Source: a virus. Taken from it: 20,169 nt of DNA. The notes under the pieces are model-generated. The model made no database searches. It worked only from the letters and a program-made list of their open reading frames with translations, and was not told where the DNA came from. This document shows, one piece after another, positions 1,014-12,062 of this stretch (position 1 is its first letter; every line of letters begins with the position of its first letter). The translations under genes and the position numbers were made by a program. The stretch spans positions 1-20,169 of the IMG/VR virus record IMGVR_UViG_3300021378_000210. One strand, 5' to 3'.

Positions 1014-1094
1014 GGTGAATTCCTGATGACTTAACTACAATACACGATTTTGGACCCTGTGCCGAAACCTTGTGCCACTTCCCCGACTGTCACA
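1014..1094 (-). repeat. 81-bp direct repeat, copy 2 (regulatory module)
   Basis: Second copy of the unit at 742-822, offset by 272 bases, upstream of the 831-1007 gene. Its distal end also forms the left arm of the 22-bp inverted repeat at 1072-1164. Confidence 0.9.
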
Positions 1095-1164
1095 CTCATA
1101 AGGTCTCTCTATGGGTCTTATAAGGTCTTCTAATGCCCTCTCGTGCCAGTCGGGGAAGTGGCAC
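1072..1164. repeat. 22-bp inverted repeat with 49-nt loop
   Basis: Arm 1072-1093 (GTGCCACTTCCCCGACTG then TCAC) and arm 1143-1164 are reverse complements with one mismatch. Each arm is itself an imperfect palindrome (GTGCCA...TGGCAC). The loop holds two copies of ATAAGGTCT. The right arm begins immediately after the stop codon of the 1166-1318 gene, so it may act as transcript end or boundary structure. The arm belongs to the gene-end motif family seen elsewhere in the window. Confidence 0.85.
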
Positions 1165-1165
1165 A

Positions 1166-1318
1166 CTAATACACGTCTGCGGTCTCTCTGATGCTAATAT
1201 CAACGTTCTCGTCACCTTCTAGTCCTAAGATATCATTCCAATTGATATTCTTAAGGTCTAGATCTTCATAACACTCAATGTCTAATGTAACACTTACAAT
1301 GCGTTTCTGTGCGTACAT
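1166..1318 (-). CDS. Small acidic phage protein, 50 aa
   Basis: The frame reads MYAQKRIVSVTLDIECYEDL and continues with a DLKNINWNDILGLEGDENV core to a TAG at 1166. Codon use and the amphipathic beta-then-helix look are like a real gene, and I recognise the VSVTL...INW...LEGDE pattern from small cyanophage proteins. It has its own possible promoter (TATAAT at 1343-1348), and its stop is followed directly by the gene-end inverted repeat. Function unknown. Confidence 0.65.
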   Translation of the reverse strand: MYAQKRIVSVTLDIECYEDLDLKNINWNDILGLEGDENVDISIRETADVY

Positions 1319-1342
1319 GTGTATCTCGTGTGATGTTTGCGT

Positions 1343-1348
1343 ATTATA
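1343..1348 (-). promoter_or_regulatory. Candidate -10 box for the 1166-1318 gene
   Basis: A perfect TATAAT on the minus strand 25 bases upstream of the ATG at 1318. A weak -35 (TTGCAT) sits 17 bases further upstream at 1366-1371. An ATCTCGT half-site lies between the -10 and the ATG, so the promoter would be under the same control as the array. Confidence 0.5.
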
Positions 1349-1543
1349 TCATGCGTAATGCTTATATGCAAGCTCGACGTAATCACATGTATCTCGTGCA
1401 TACTCATCATCATCGTCATATGCATCTAGTTGCATATCTCGTGATGTATTATGCATGTATGTCTCACACATCTCGTCGAGATCGTATACATTATGATCAT
1501 TGCTTAATGATGTATAGTCGAGATTGTGATCGTAGTAATACAT
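1349..1543 (-). CDS. Possible Asp/Tyr-rich 64-aa protein inside the palindrome array
   Basis: An open frame of 64 residues (MYYYDHNLDYTSLSND...), very rich in Asp, Tyr and His, with a DAYDDDDEY stretch. It begins 33 bases downstream of a perfect consensus promoter, which argues for a real transcript. However, its sequence contains several array palindromes and many short ATGCAT-like palindromes, and its composition is unlike the neighbouring proteins, so the frame may be fortuitous. No family is recognised. Confidence 0.35.
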   Translation of the reverse strand: MYYYDHNLDYTSLSNDHNVYDLDEMCETYMHNTSRDMQLDAYDDDDEYARDTCDYVELAYKHYA

Positions 1544-1575
1544 GGGTCTCGTCGAGATTTGTATGTTACTTTGTT

Positions 1576-1604
1576 ATTATACTGTTATCTCGTCTAGATG
1601 TCAA
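1576..1604 (-). promoter_or_regulatory. Perfect consensus sigma-70 promoter flanked by palindromic operators
   Basis: On the minus strand TTGACA (1599-1604) and TATAAT (1576-1581) are separated by exactly 17 bases. One array palindrome (1587-1599) occupies the spacer, another (1611-1623) lies just upstream of the -35, and a third (1546-1558) lies about +10 to +22. This is the arrangement expected of a strong early promoter under repression. Confidence 0.8.
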
Positions 1605-1633
1605 GTGCATGTCTAGTCGAGATCCATAAGCAT

Positions 1634-1641
1634 TATTTATA
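1634..1641 (-). promoter_or_regulatory. T4-type late promoter core TATAAATA
   Basis: Exact match to the T4 late promoter core on the minus strand, lying between two array palindromes and upstream of the consensus sigma-70 promoter. It would allow late transcription of the same region by gp55-type sigma factor. An 8-base match in AT-rich DNA can arise by chance. Confidence 0.4.
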
Positions 1642-1655
1642 AGTCTCGACGAGAA

Positions 1656-1894
1656 AAAATGTGTGGGTCTCAGAATTTTTATGCGGGGGTGGTTGACAAA
1701 ATGCTCTGAGTGTGATAGCCTGCGGGTAAAGGTCACAAGGACTGAGAGGTTTATAAGGGGTTTATAAGACCTTTAGAGCAGGTTCTTTTTTCCACAAATA
1801 AGTATTCAATTCTCATAAAAATCAGAGTATTTATAACTCTTTTCAGAACACTAAATCAAATAAAAACAATAATTAAACAATAATGTAATAATCT
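1656..1894. other. AT-rich intergenic region upstream of the HNH gene
   Basis: No convincing gene on either strand. It contains a second TATAAATA core on the minus strand (1828-1835, flanked by GAGT and ACTC) and a plus-strand TTGACA at 1693-1698 with only a weak -10 17 bases later (TAGCCT). At 1750-1776 two TTTATAAG-like repeats precede a T-rich run, which may be a weak plus-strand terminator. Short AGACCTTATAAG-type strings here also occur in the loop of the 1072-1164 inverted repeat. Confidence 0.5.
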
Positions 1895-1930: not shown

Positions 1931-2470
1931 ATGCAATCCAGATTTATAAGGTTTGAGAATACAAAACATCTGAAAGATTATGAAGGTTATGGTATTGATG
2001 TGGAAGGTAATGTATGGTCATTTAAGCAAAAGAAACCAAAGATGCTTTCCCCCGGATGGAAAAAGAAGAATCATGGATATAGATCTGTTGTATTAACACC
2101 TAAGGATAAAAGCAAACCTTTAAAGAATTTCTTAGTTCATAGATTAGTTGCATTAGCATTCATTCCAACTGATGACATCACAATGCAAGTTAATCATATC
2201 AATCGTAATAGTACTGATAATACATTAGAAAACTTAGAATGGGTAAGTAGAGAAAAGAATATATCTCATAATGATAAAGTGAATGGATTTAAATTAGATT
2301 CTTACATATTAGCAAAGATAAAAGAAGTTCACTCTGCTTCTATAAGAAAAGGTCTTCCAGTTCCTACTTCCTATGAGTTTATGAATAGTATAATAGAAGG
2401 TTCATTAGAGCAATATATCAATCAGTATGGTTTGCGTAAAGTAATGAATCAATTACCGAAACCAAGTTAA
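1931..2470 (+). CDS. Free-standing HNH homing endonuclease with NUMOD4-like N-terminus
   Basis: A 179-residue protein. Residues about 14-52 (KDYEGYGIDVEGNVWSF, then KNHGYRSVVL) match the NUMOD4-type DNA-binding module. Residues 68-113 carry the HNH_3 signature: LVHRLVALAFIP with His70, VNHINRN with Asn88/His89, and LENLEWVSREKNISH. The C-terminal 60 residues look like an extra DNA-binding tail. Such proteins nick or cut DNA and spread themselves into related phages. It is the only convincing plus-strand gene in the window and is AT-rich, both typical of a recent insertion. Its stop codon touches the stop codon of the opposing 2471-2572 frame. Upstream is a hairpin that may hold back translation until late infection. 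Confidence 0.93.
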   Translation: MQSRFIRFENTKHLKDYEGYGIDVEGNVWSFKQKKPKMLSPGWKKKNHGYRSVVLTPKDKSKPLKNFLVHRLVALAFIPTDDITMQVNHINRNSTDNTLENLEWVSREKNISHNDKVNGFKLDSYILAKIKEVHSASIRKGLPVPTSYEFMNSIIEGSLEQYINQYGLRKVMNQLPKPS

Positions 2471-5890: not shown

Positions 5891-5896
5891 ATTATA
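5891..5896 (-). promoter_or_regulatory. TATAAT promoter overlapping the methyltransferase stop codon
   Basis: The minus-strand TATAAT contains the TAA stop of the 5892-6839 gene and is followed by ACAGAGGTAATCAAGGGAAC, the leader shared with the 10547, 16526 and 18073 genes. No hairpin is seen here, so methyltransferase transcripts may read through. Confidence 0.7.
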
Positions 5897-6839
5897 AGGC
5901 ATACAGAGCACTCTCCAAGGGGTTCTGTGCCAGTTCCTCAACTGTCATACGTCCTCTTGCTATTTCTGTATAGTGTTCACTAAGATCCATACCAACAAAG
6001 TTCCTATATTGTCTTATGGCAGCGACTCCAGTGGTGCCACTACCACAAAATGGATCCAGAACAATAGAACCGGCAGGAGAATAGATCTTAATAAGATATT
6101 CCATTAATGATACTGGTTTAACTGTAGGATGATCATTATTTTCTCCCTTTTCTTTCTTTGTTGCTCTTGGTGCATAAAAATACTTTTGCTCAGAAGGTTG
6201 TACTTCACCAATAATATTCATTGGATAACGTCCTGCAGCATTACCACCGGTAGTTTCTTTTGGTATTGGTTCATTTGTAGATGGATCAATCCAATATTCT
6301 TCTTTGGTTTTAATATCACATGCCTTATTCTGAATACCACCAAATACTCTACGTTTCTCACCACCTTTAATCCAACCTGTTGGTGGTTTTCCATCCCAAG
6401 GCACGCGAGTATTGTCGATATCTATCAATCCACATCCCCATTTCTCATGATTCTCTTTGAGAGAACCTTCATAAGGTTTTTGTCCTACTACAATCGGTTC
6501 ATGTGCTGGTTTCAATCGATTATATTTTGCCATCTTAGTTGTGGTCATCCACATAATCTGATCTTTGATAATAAAACCAGCATCCTCTACATTACATGCC
6601 AGACGATGATACAACTCAGGAGAACAAAATGCAAGACAAAAAGCACCTGGTCGCAAAGTCCTATAAACTTCACACCAGATGTCTACATCGGGAACAGAAT
6701 GATCCCAGTGATCCATACCCATACCATATGGGGGATCAGTGATACATGAATGGAAATAGTTCTCCCCATAAGTGGAGAGAACATCTTTACAATTACCTGT
6801 TACAATATCAAAGGTGGAACTCATCAGGGATTTCTTCAT
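5892..6839 (-). CDS. Site-specific DNA methyltransferase, beta class (N6-adenine or N4-cytosine)
   Basis: A 315-residue protein. Motif IV DPPY is at residues 35-38 (ITDPPYGMGMDHW), the HPTVKP block at 237-242, and motif I LDPFCGSGTTG at 261-271. This order (catalytic motif before the AdoMet motif) marks the beta class, which transfers a methyl group from AdoMet to an exocyclic base amine. The central region (about 95-230) is the likely target-recognition part and includes GLIDIDNTRVPW. The frame overlaps the upstream ParB-like gene by 32 bases; a second ATG at 6824 would leave a 17-base overlap. The tight coupling suggests a joint role. With the nuclease at 8199-8729 it may be the protective half of a phage restriction-modification-like set; solitary protection against host enzymes is the alternative. 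Confidence 0.92.
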   Translation of the reverse strand: MKKSLMSSTFDIVTGNCKDVLSTYGENYFHSCITDPPYGMGMDHWDHSVPDVDIWCEVYRTLRPGAFCLAFCSPELYHRLACNVEDAGFIIKDQIMWMTTTKMAKYNRLKPAHEPIVVGQKPYEGSLKENHEKWGCGLIDIDNTRVPWDGKPPTGWIKGGEKRRVFGGIQNKACDIKTKEEYWIDPSTNEPIPKETTGGNAAGRYPMNIIGEVQPSEQKYFYAPRATKKEKGENNDHPTVKPVSLMEYLIKIYSPAGSIVLDPFCGSGTTGVAAIRQYRNFVGMDLSEHYTEIARGRMTVEELAQNPLESALYAL

Positions 6840-8130
6840 TATTATCTTGGTACACCCAGTTGAACATTACACTAGACATTTTACCACTGGACTTCTTTTT
6901 TGCCAACTTACAAGCAAGAGCAACAAACTCACGCCATTTTCCTTCATTACGCAGTCGAAGTTCAGTGATATTTTCTGAAGTCACTTCTTCATCACGACCA
7001 CTACGGTTGCCAAGTGCTCCATAAACTTCAAAGGAAAATTCATTATACTTTGGATTTACCATATCTTCCATGATTTGCTTCATTAAACGAACATCAGTTT
7101 CAGACTGGTTCATGATAGAAACATAACGAATGACTTTGTTCTTGTAGTCAACTCCATCAACAATATCGAAAGTCTTAGGATTGCCAATAAATTGACGGAT
7201 TTCTGCTTGTTTCCATGTACGAATGGACTCACGATGACCTTCAAGTTCAAGGATCTTGACGGCAGTATCAACACGATTAGAAGGTGTGATATGTGGATAT
7301 GTTGCCTTAAGATAGTCTTTTACAGCATCAACATTTGCTTCCAAACGTCCTTTGCGAATCCAATCACGAATAGCAGAGGTAGCATCTGCCTCAGAGGTAA
7401 AGTTGCAGAGGTGAACACCATCAGGATTGTTGGAAGTAGAACCAAACTTCTGCAGAAAATCCTCATGTGGAGCACTAATTACAGAACAAGGCAGATAATC
7501 ACCATCAGTACAATAACGGTGACGACCATTACGAAGAACGTATTTCTTCATTTTGCCGTCAGAACCCATAATAGGTACTTTCAATTCAGAAACTGAAGGT
7601 TGTGGTACATTATACATCCAACCTTTGTTCTGAATACTCTCATTGATTTGAGCAACAGTGTCGTGAAAAAGATCATTACCATCACGCTGCTGATAATACT
7701 CTTTCAGACCCAATCGAACTGCTTCTTCATGATCAATAACTTCGTCTTTACGGATATAGTCCCAACGATCAAAAGTGATATGATCACCTTCAGGTTCAGG
7801 TGCTTTTTGTTTCAGTTGATTGATCACAGAGAGAATATGTTTTTCTGGATAAACTGTTTCAGTGTTAAGGCAATCGTTAAGATTTTGAAAAATCATTGGA
7901 TTAAGTCGATAAGTACCATCATAATCAATAAATTTAATACAATTTTCATCTCTTAATATTTGAAGATCTGCTCTTACACATGCTTCTCTTGAATCTTCAC
8001 TTGTTCTACCATCATAAACAGAATCCCAAGGATCAGATAGTTTAGAAAGTAATTGTTGTAATTCAAACTTTTCATTTGGTTCTACAAAATTACGAATAGT
8101 GTCTCTTAGAAAATTAACTGTGGCAGACAT
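6808..8130 (-). CDS. Winged-helix plus ParB-like domain protein, 440 aa
   Basis: Residues 1-76 end in EACVRADLQILRDENCIKFI and DYDGTYRL, the pattern of a winged helix often fused to restriction enzymes. Residues about 115-235 contain DHITFDRWDYIRKDE, then VLRNGRHRYCTDGDYLPCSV; the NGRHR box at 201-205 resembles the ParB/sulfiredoxin-fold nuclease motif. The C-terminal 200 residues are not recognised and end in a Lys-rich KLAKKKSSGKMSS segment. The longer frame to 8232 crosses a terminator hairpin, so ATG 8130 is chosen, 23 bases after TATACT. It overlaps the methyltransferase. A role as specificity, regulator or second nuclease component of a modification system is inference. Confidence 0.75.
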   Translation of the reverse strand: MSATVNFLRDTIRNFVEPNEKFELQQLLSKLSDPWDSVYDGRTSEDSREACVRADLQILRDENCIKFIDYDGTYRLNPMIFQNLNDCLNTETVYPEKHILSVINQLKQKAPEPEGDHITFDRWDYIRKDEVIDHEEAVRLGLKEYYQQRDGNDLFHDTVAQINESIQNKGWMYNVPQPSVSELKVPIMGSDGKMKKYVLRNGRHRYCTDGDYLPCSVISAPHEDFLQKFGSTSNNPDGVHLCNFTSEADATSAIRDWIRKGRLEANVDAVKDYLKATYPHITPSNRVDTAVKILELEGHRESIRTWKQAEIRQFIGNPKTFDIVDGVDYKNKVIRYVSIMNQSETDVRLMKQIMEDMVNPKYNEFSFEVYGALGNRSGRDEEVTSENITELRLRNEGKWREFVALACKLAKKKSSGKMSSVMFNWVYQDNNEEIPDEFHL

Positions 8131-8152
8131 GATAGGTTTGTTTGATAAAAGT

Positions 8153-8188
8153 AGTATAAAGGAAAAGGAGAGGGAATTCAATCCCTCT
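8153..8188 (-). promoter_or_regulatory. Terminator hairpin whose loop is a -35 box, plus TATACT
   Basis: Stem AGAGGGA/TCCCTCT (8169-8175, 8182-8188) with loop TTGAAT on the minus strand. That loop is placed exactly 17 bases upstream of TATACT (8153-8158). The structure should end the nuclease transcript (8199-8729) and start that of the ParB-like and methyltransferase pair. Confidence 0.75.
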
Positions 8189-8198
8189 TCATAATTTG

Positions 8199-8729
8199 TT
8201 ACCAGGTGTGATTCAGGACATTGGATTCGCACTGTTGACGTTCAAAGTGCTTGAAGTAGTCTTTCTTACCAGCACCGTTCTGAACATACATGTTGCGAAT
8301 GTAAAAATCAAAACCACGGGAATCTTCCTGCCATTCTTCATCCATTTGATGAAGTTTCAGAACTGCATTCAATTCTTCAGTTAGATTATTGAATTGTTGA
8401 CGTTTCTTGGTAGAAACAACATCATCGGCAAAGAAGATTGTTGTTTGATTGTAACGATTACTGCTGAAGATGTAGACAACACCTTCTTTCGGCAATCCAC
8501 CATTGTAAGTAGGATAAGTTTGCTTACTTGACTTACATTCAATGTCAACGGTTTTACCGTCTTCAAGGAACACTCGAAAATCAGGACTTGCTTGAATACC
8601 ATTCGGTTGAGCAATATATCGGAATCCGTGCTTAATCAGCAGTTCTTCGACTTGCTTCTCATGAAGTGGGTTGTCTTGAGAATTGGACTTGTAAGGGAGG
8701 AGCAGAACCTCTTGCCAGAATTTTTTCAT
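8199..8729 (-). CDS. PD-(D/E)XK nuclease, restriction-endonuclease-like, 176 aa
   Basis: A 176-residue protein with a classical active site: SPDFRVF (Asp50) and VDIECKSSK (Glu64-Cys-Lys66), preceded by a helix with Glu (HEKQVEELLIKHGF, residues 23-36). The QPNGIQASPDF lead-in, the YNGGLPKEGVVYIFSS block and TTIFFADDVV are like small type II restriction enzymes. It would cleave double-stranded DNA using Mg2+. It has its own strong promoter and is followed by a terminator and then the ParB-like and methyltransferase genes, so nuclease and methyltransferase are separately controlled. The target is unknown. A phage-encoded host-genome-degrading nuclease is an alternative. Confidence 0.85.
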   Translation of the reverse strand: MKKFWQEVLLLPYKSNSQDNPLHEKQVEELLIKHGFRYIAQPNGIQASPDFRVFLEDGKTVDIECKSSKQTYPTYNGGLPKEGVVYIFSSNRYNQTTIFFADDVVSTKKRQQFNNLTEELNAVLKLHQMDEEWQEDSRGFDFYIRNMYVQNGAGKKDYFKHFERQQCESNVLNHTW

Positions 8730-11479: not shown

Positions 11480-11636
11480 GAGAATTAAGTTCATCTTGGA
11501 TTGCTTTTTCCATAAAAGATTGAATTTCTTTACTTGTCATATTATTTAACCAACTCCAATTAGGATCATTTTTATCCCATTCAAGATCAAATGAACCATC
11601 TTCATTCTGATGGACTTTAAGAGAATCAGCACTCAT
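11472..11636 (-). CDS. Small conserved-type phage protein, 54 aa
   Basis: The frame MSADSLKVHQNEDGSFDLEW continues DKNDPNWSWLNNMTSKEIQS and FMEKAIQDEL. The GSFDLEW.K.DP.W..LN..T.KEIQ pattern is one I associate with cyanophage hypothetical proteins. It overlaps both neighbours by about ten bases. Function unknown. Confidence 0.72.
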   Translation of the reverse strand: MSADSLKVHQNEDGSFDLEWDKNDPNWSWLNNMTSKEIQSFMEKAIQDELNSHA

Positions 11637-11805
11637 CTTTCTTAAATTGTTTACGACACTTTTTTACTTCCTTGAGTTCATCTTTTATCATTTTATATGC
11701 ATCATCCGGACTAATGCGTTTTGATACTTCCATAGCAGTAATGATTTCTACTCTTGTACCAAAATGTTTTAATGCTTCTTCAAAACAATTAAGTTCTTCA
11801 TACAT
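11626..11805 (-). CDS. Small conserved-type phage protein, 59 aa
   Basis: From ATG 11805: MYEELNCFEEALKHFGTRVE, then IITAMEVSKRISPDDAYKMI and a basic ELKEVKKCRKQFKKDEC tail. AAGGA lies about ten bases upstream of the ATG; a GTG at 11811 would add two residues. It is helical with a basic C-terminus. Function unknown. Confidence 0.78.
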   Translation of the reverse strand: MYEELNCFEEALKHFGTRVEIITAMEVSKRISPDDAYKMIKDELKEVKKCRKQFKKDEC

Positions 11806-11807
11806 AA

Positions 11808-12062
11808 TCACAAATCCTTATAGGATCCTCCACTAGAAACAACTATAGTATGATCATCTAAAGTCCCATCCTGCTCACATTGGAGATGAAATCGGGTCAT
11901 GATGATTACATTATCTTTGATAGCACCAGTAAGCATTTTACGACCTTGTTTGGTCATCGAAGAAAACAAACCATAACGAGTTTCCCAAACATAGAAACAC
12001 TCATCAATAAGTTCGGCACCTTCAGGTATAATAACTTCTGGTTTTGTATCAGTCTGAATCAT
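11808..12062 (-). CDS. Phage hypothetical, 84 aa
   Basis: From ATG 12062: MIQTDTKPEVIIPEGAELID, ECFYVWETRYGLFSSMTKQG, then IKDNVIIMTRFHLQCEQDG. It is beta-rich. GAAGAGA precedes the ATG; a longer frame to 12095 would lie wholly inside the previous gene. Function unknown. Confidence 0.75.
   Translation of the reverse strand: MIQTDTKPEVIIPEGAELIDECFYVWETRYGLFSSMTKQGRKMLTGAIKDNVIIMTRFHLQCEQDGTLDDHTIVVSSGGSYKDL

Follow-up and report, generated by a model that had tools for sequence, protein, structure and literature searches.

The DNA analysed here, a stretch of 20,169 bases referred to below as the window, carries an array of 13-bp palindromes that runs across a sigma-70-type promoter and into the gene behind it. 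Judging from the sequence, these palindromes are probably the operators of a dimeric regulator that represses an immediate-early operon of two small genes, YHYA and VTLD. The array is of the operator type, a general kind that is known; its setting is unexpected, and it is widespread. The window belongs to a T4-like cyanophage and is closest to Synechococcus phage S-SKS1, with which it aligns over 63% of its length at 91% identity. The features of the locus are given below, with mismatches counted against the first-noted word ATCTCGNCGAGAT unless otherwise indicated.

1166 to 1318, minus strand: VTLD, second gene of the operon, a 50-aa protein (phrog_12516) with homologues in many cyanomyoviruses
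1323 to 1330, plus strand: half-site ATCTCGTG, read directly
1349 to 1543, minus strand: YHYA, first gene of the operon, a 64-aa acidic ORF whose family occurs in 103 contigs
1391 to 1398, plus strand: half-site ATCTCGTG, read directly
1436 to 1443, plus strand: half-site ATCTCGTG, read directly
1470 to 1482, no strand: operator-like palindrome, exact ATCTCGTCGAGAT (0 mismatches), within the YHYA ORF, where it codes for LDE
1512 to 1524, no strand: operator-like palindrome GTATAGTCGAGAT, 3 mismatches to the first-noted word and 2 to the degenerate word ATCTMGNCKAGAT, within the YHYA ORF
1546 to 1558, no strand: operator-like palindrome, 1 mismatch, at about +10 to +22 of the minus-strand promoter (register peak +46)
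1576 to 1581, minus strand: -10 TATAAT of the array promoter
1587 to 1599, no strand: operator-like palindrome, 1 mismatch, in the promoter spacer and with one base in common with the -35 (register peak +5)
1599 to 1604, minus strand: -35 TTGACA of the array promoter, which with the -10 gives a 12/12 sigma-70 match
1611 to 1623, no strand: operator-like palindrome, 2 mismatches, immediately 5' of the -35 (register peak -19)
1643 to 1655, no strand: operator-like palindrome, 2 mismatches, outermost, on the side of the outward promoter
1693 to 1721, plus strand: degenerate outward (divergent) promoter, TTGACA at 1693-1698 followed by TAGCCT as a poor -10 (relatives have a better -10, TATGCT)
1788 to 1796, plus strand: the one DnaA-box-like TTTTCCACA left (2-4 in phase in many relatives)
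1931 to 2470, plus strand: divergent HNH endonuclease gene adjoining the array (GIY-YIG instead in most relatives having one)

Six sites of the form ATCTMG-W-CKAGAT span positions 1470-1655, accompanied by the three half-sites. A site scan found at most 2 mismatches to ATCTCGNCGAGAT at five of the six (1470, 1546, 1587, 1611 and 1643), which agrees with the five strong copies reported in the first-pass annotation, and no further site of this quality in the full 20,169-base record. The even scatter that this annotation had named as evidence against a dedicated site was therefore not observed, as the five sites lie at one spot only. Forty first-order Markov simulations of the window produced a mean of 0.45 sites in total, and never more than one site in any 190-bp stretch. 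Thus, near-identical palindromes are clustered at one locus beyond chance. The description of this cluster as a ten-fold array holds only if the half-sites and an additional 3-mismatch site at 1371 are counted; indeed, the half-sites at 1323, 1391 and 1436 account for much the greater part of the earlier count of ten. The portion of the array within 1349-1543 is not intergenic and coincides with the conserved small ORF YHYA.

The array promoter, TTGACA-N17-TATAAT, is as perfect as previously described, with a 17-base spacer, but its strand had to be corrected to minus, so that it is directed at YHYA and then VTLD. Sites in the spacer, just 5' of the -35 and at about +10 to +22 were all found as claimed. 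Among 86 non-redundant YHYA loci, 42 displayed a promoter of at least 11/12, versus 10 of 510 control windows; 32 of these 86 primary loci were devoid of any promoter of at least 10/12. Operator positions relative to the first base of the -35 peaked at three offsets: +5, corresponding to the last base of TTGACA (28/86 loci), +46, or 41 bp downstream of that last base (15/86), and -19, or 24 bp upstream of it (10/86). All three positions are occupied in the window. In the Prochlorococcus phage P-SSM2, the promoter reads TTGACA-[ATCTCGACTAGAT]CTGG-TATAAT, and the operator takes up spacer bases 1-13. The sites thus overlap the promoter in a fixed register that is kept across dozens of loci, which strongly supports the operator placement proposed earlier. 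On the opposite side, an outward TTGACA promoter of at least 10/12 was detected in 34/67 of the relatives' loci, versus 17% of controls.

The first-pass annotation had also suggested counting the 13-mer in relatives, a lack of conservation there being its second refuting condition; the array proved to be conserved. Syntenic arrays were found in S-SKS1, S-T4, S-SRM01, P-SSM2 (four exact sites, 66029-66170), P-SSM5, the single-cell virus AG-345-F15 and many IMG/VR contigs, with paired sites in at least 120 IMG/VR stretches. A census of the collected loci gave 160 clusters of at least three sites across 130 contigs, and the word ATCTMG-W-CKAGAT was derived from 905 sites. Phages of Prochlorococcus, of marine Synechococcus and of freshwater Synechococcus have this one word in common. 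A motif-agnostic search for arrays of perfect palindromes was also run; its criterion was too strict to be useful. When bacterial and archaeal genomes were scanned for paired sites, no cyanobacterium was present among the matches listed; these were scattered among unrelated taxa and were judged to be due to chance.

In the window, S-SKS1 and S-T4, the array is restricted to this locus. The S-T4 record (NC_048049.1) contains it twice, near each end (2713-2935 and 174282-174504), which fits a redundant assembly end. S-SRM01 and several contigs contain 2-4 arrays, kilobases apart and at recurring gene boundaries, which makes it probable that the regulator governs a small regulon. A promoter of at least 10/12 was present at 29/55 of the secondary arrays versus 24% of controls, a modest excess. 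In S-CAM7 (locus L032, 2090-2320), a different repeat/palindrome array lies upstream of VTLD, with the core ACTGCGCAGT and half-sites CGCAGYATAT; such a different operator-like word would fit an altered specificity of the regulator.

The overlap of the array with a coding sequence allowed constraint on the DNA word to be assessed. YHYA has an N-terminus resembling MYDDYDLDY and a C-terminus, LAYRHYA, from which its name is taken. The array overlaps this ORF in 97 of the 103 YHYA-bearing contigs, and 93 contigs have VTLD. Phage Sf-CH8 possesses YHYA upstream of VTLD without the array, indicating that YHYA is a real gene. Most sites within YHYA translate as Leu-Asp-Glu, and 173 of 188 in-gene sites are read in this single frame. 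This tripeptide is spelled CTCGACGAG in 113/141 YHYA-family triplets, versus 1/68 in the other ORFs of the same contigs, a test that is independent of the site-calling procedure. Within the YHYA coding sequence, selection thus acts on the DNA word itself, and the word is kept in relatives.

VTLD (phrog_12516) has no known function. Its structure model was of modest confidence, with no clear fold, and its profile gave no usable PDB match. Just 3' of this gene, a near-perfect 23-bp inverted repeat, TGTGCCACTTCCCCGACTGTCAC, lies within window positions 1071-1165, with a partial second copy of the region about 280 bp away, near 741-825; it is possibly a terminator or a mobile hairpin. On the outward side of the array, a divergent GIY-YIG or HNH gene is present in 25/59 loci, and this position appears to be an insertion hot spot. 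Farther away, positions 5892-8729 (minus strand) encode a DNA methylase (N6_N4_Mtase) alongside two other ORFs, one of 474 aa that weakly matches a DpnI_C HTH and one of 176 aa that is nuclease-like; the group may constitute a restriction-modification-like cassette in the phage. Rfam and tRNA scans gave no matches.

From these observations, we infer the following mode of action. A dimeric DNA-binding regulator would control a promoter of the host sigma-70 type, from which YHYA and VTLD would be transcribed leftward in the window. Three operators would be occupied at fixed places, about -55 to -43, -31 to -19 and +10 to +22, and a dimer bound in the spacer, which at 17 bp is of optimal length in a promoter of consensus sequence, should block RNA polymerase. 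The in-gene operators, maintained by constrained codon choice, might add cooperative binding or looping. The promoter would be active upon infection and would be shut off as the regulator accumulates. Since a consensus promoter with an optimal spacer should need no activator, repression appears to be the simpler reading.

The best candidate for such a regulator is a putative AbrB/MazE-fold protein of 58 residues (phrog_661) encoded 3-9 kb downstream of the array. It is present in all array-bearing isolates examined, in P-SSM2 as PSSM2_102, and its gene lies downstream of the array in 15/19 contigs of sufficient length. Its profile matched the AbrB chains of the PDB weakly (E ~0.3). Its model (pLDDT 78.5) had MazE, AbrB and SpoVT among the best Foldseek matches, none with E<0.001. 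From its sequence the protein is acidic, and it is also found in the array-less Sf-CH8. Since the array phages appear, from the genes they have in common, to be related, co-occurrence of a gene with the array can be phylogenetic. Two other candidates were rejected. DUF7219 (phrog_765; window 11626-11811, minus strand, 61 aa) was the sole plausible protein common to three array phages and missing from four others, but it occurs in 280 records, and those checked (WH25-B, Syn33, S-RIM2 and Sf-FP1) had no array. This protein is broadly conserved in cyanophages, often beside thymidylate synthase, and here lies in a small-gene region. A small conserved protein adjoining phoH, called a transcriptional regulator in some records, displayed no obvious link to the array.

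Three other explanations of the palindromes were weighed against operators of a phage repressor. The protein bound could be an activator, or a transcription factor of the host. The palindrome directly upstream of the -35 occupies a possible activator position, and a wider profile comprising P-SSM2 and eight array-less phages yielded no convincing array-phage-specific protein. Against this, the promoter already matches the consensus fully, the operators cover parts of the spacer and of the early transcribed region, and one word serves phages of three host groups; for a host factor in particular, the scan of bacterial and archaeal genomes returned no cyanobacterium among the matches listed. We therefore consider this explanation distinctly unlikely. 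The array might also be the repeat-rich coding sequence of an acidic LDE-repeat protein, in which case the operators would be only apparent. The frame common to nearly all in-gene sites is what would be expected of such repeats, but sites are present beyond the gene too, including the promoter spacer, which refutes coding repeats as the sole explanation; moreover, the CTCGACGAG spelling is almost confined to this family, and Sf-CH8 retains the protein without the sites. This makes the explanation highly improbable. The least credible of the three has a ParB/KorB-type protein binding the array as a partition or centromere site; the first-pass annotation had raised a partition-like site. KorB operators are clustered 13-bp palindromes with a central base, and the array resembles them in this respect. 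However, the ParB_N domain was detected in 0/11 cyanophage genomes, four of them array-bearing, while 11/14 control genomes were positive, and a partition-like site is accordingly disfavoured. The 474-aa ORF of the window was considered as a ParB-like protein on account of a GRHR motif and was rejected: only the weak DpnI_C match was obtained, and no homologue was found in 12 genomes at E 1e-2.

A replication origin with iterons had also been proposed. The palindromes themselves gave no support to this idea, but in many relatives the array has a distinct neighbour, a block of phased DnaA boxes. The consensus of the cyanobacterial DnaA box is TTTTCCACA, of the form TTWTCCACA (PMC4674748). Many relatives have 2-4 such boxes in one orientation, 11-12 or 20-22 bp apart, upstream of the array and YHYA; initiator boxes are thus clustered in helical phase in relatives, while the window has one box. 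Of 30 close box pairs in the array contigs (1.13 Mb), 27 fall at this locus; 12 cyanophage genomes have close pairs in two places only, this locus in S-SKS1 and the VTLD gene in S-SM2. The phased boxes are located at 2913-2955 of locus L005 (S-SKS1 151414-151464) and at 2246-2279 of locus L035 (S-SM2). A box-pair scan in which the palindromes were not used gave at least 78 new loci, which were checked, 12 of them with VTLD. Among the matches listed, 11 of these 12 loci had the boxes 200-560 nt upstream of VTLD, and 9 of the 11 had no palindromes; the link between DnaA boxes and VTLD is therefore independent of the array. Short GGTTTATAAG repeats accompany the outward promoter and the boxes in many relatives. 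In S-SKS1, the outward promoter and the boxes are separated by four to five tandem copies of a 22-bp repeat, AGAAGGTTTATAAGAGTATTAG (L005 2810-2919).

These data suggest that a replication origin plausibly adjoins the array locus, and prediction of one theta origin in phage Syn9 has been reported (PMC2984593). That the locus is primarily an origin, with the palindromes as iterons of a phage initiator and with the boxes and the outward promoter recruiting host DnaA and providing a primer or activating transcript, is nevertheless unlikely in our opinion. At most VTLD loci of the box-pair scan, among the matches listed, the boxes occur without palindromes, and S-T4, S-SRM01 and P-SSM2 have palindromes without nearby box clusters; the first of these observations shows that the two elements are separable. 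GC skew is monotonic, with no turning point at the locus, though skew follows gene orientation. Finally, the operator register suits transcription control. The two elements might still be combined in a transcription-coupled origin of T4-like cyanophages, in which host DnaA would act on the phased boxes, the array between two divergent promoters would set the timing of origin transcription and firing, and the operator words at this place would be lineage-specific; we offer this model as a speculative one. Repression of the YHYA-VTLD operon through the palindromes remains the preferred reading.

The locus bears on how T4-like cyanophages control early genes without MotA/AsiA and on where they begin replication, and is a concrete, widely conserved place in cultured phages, including P-SSM2, in which both can be addressed. 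The array also implies that an as yet undescribed DNA-binding regulator acts in these widespread aquatic viruses, and its target word may vary by lineage; the phages concerned form a large family that kills ocean and lake cyanobacteria, and in them the array often lies beside a possible replication start. Exact-word and topic searches of open-access literature retrieved no prior description of the array or of the DnaA boxes in T4-like cyanophages, the exact-word matches being unrelated.

Several known systems can be compared with this locus. Like ParB/KorB sites, the array consists of clustered 13-bp palindromes with one central base; unlike partition systems, it occurs in genomes in which no ParB_N domain was found (11 cyanophages). 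The neighbouring boxes resemble a bacterial oriC in their sequence (consensus in PMC4674748), number, single orientation and spacing of one or two helical turns, but this putative origin block belongs to a phage that has a T4-type replisome of its own, and the boxes are distinct from the palindromes. As in AsiA/MotA control of T4, an early promoter of the sigma-70 type is used in a T4-like phage; here, however, the element is a palindrome array and no MotA box, and cyanomyoviruses have no motA and asi homologues (PMC2984593). The lambda OR/OL type of operator in temperate phages also differs from the array, which belongs to T4-like myoviruses held to be virulent (no lysogeny is implied), has no adjacent repressor gene and runs through the first coding gene. 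Features in common with these operators are several short palindromes placed in fixed register about a sigma-70-type promoter, a number of sites greater than a single promoter requires, and another operator-like word in a relative, S-CAM7.
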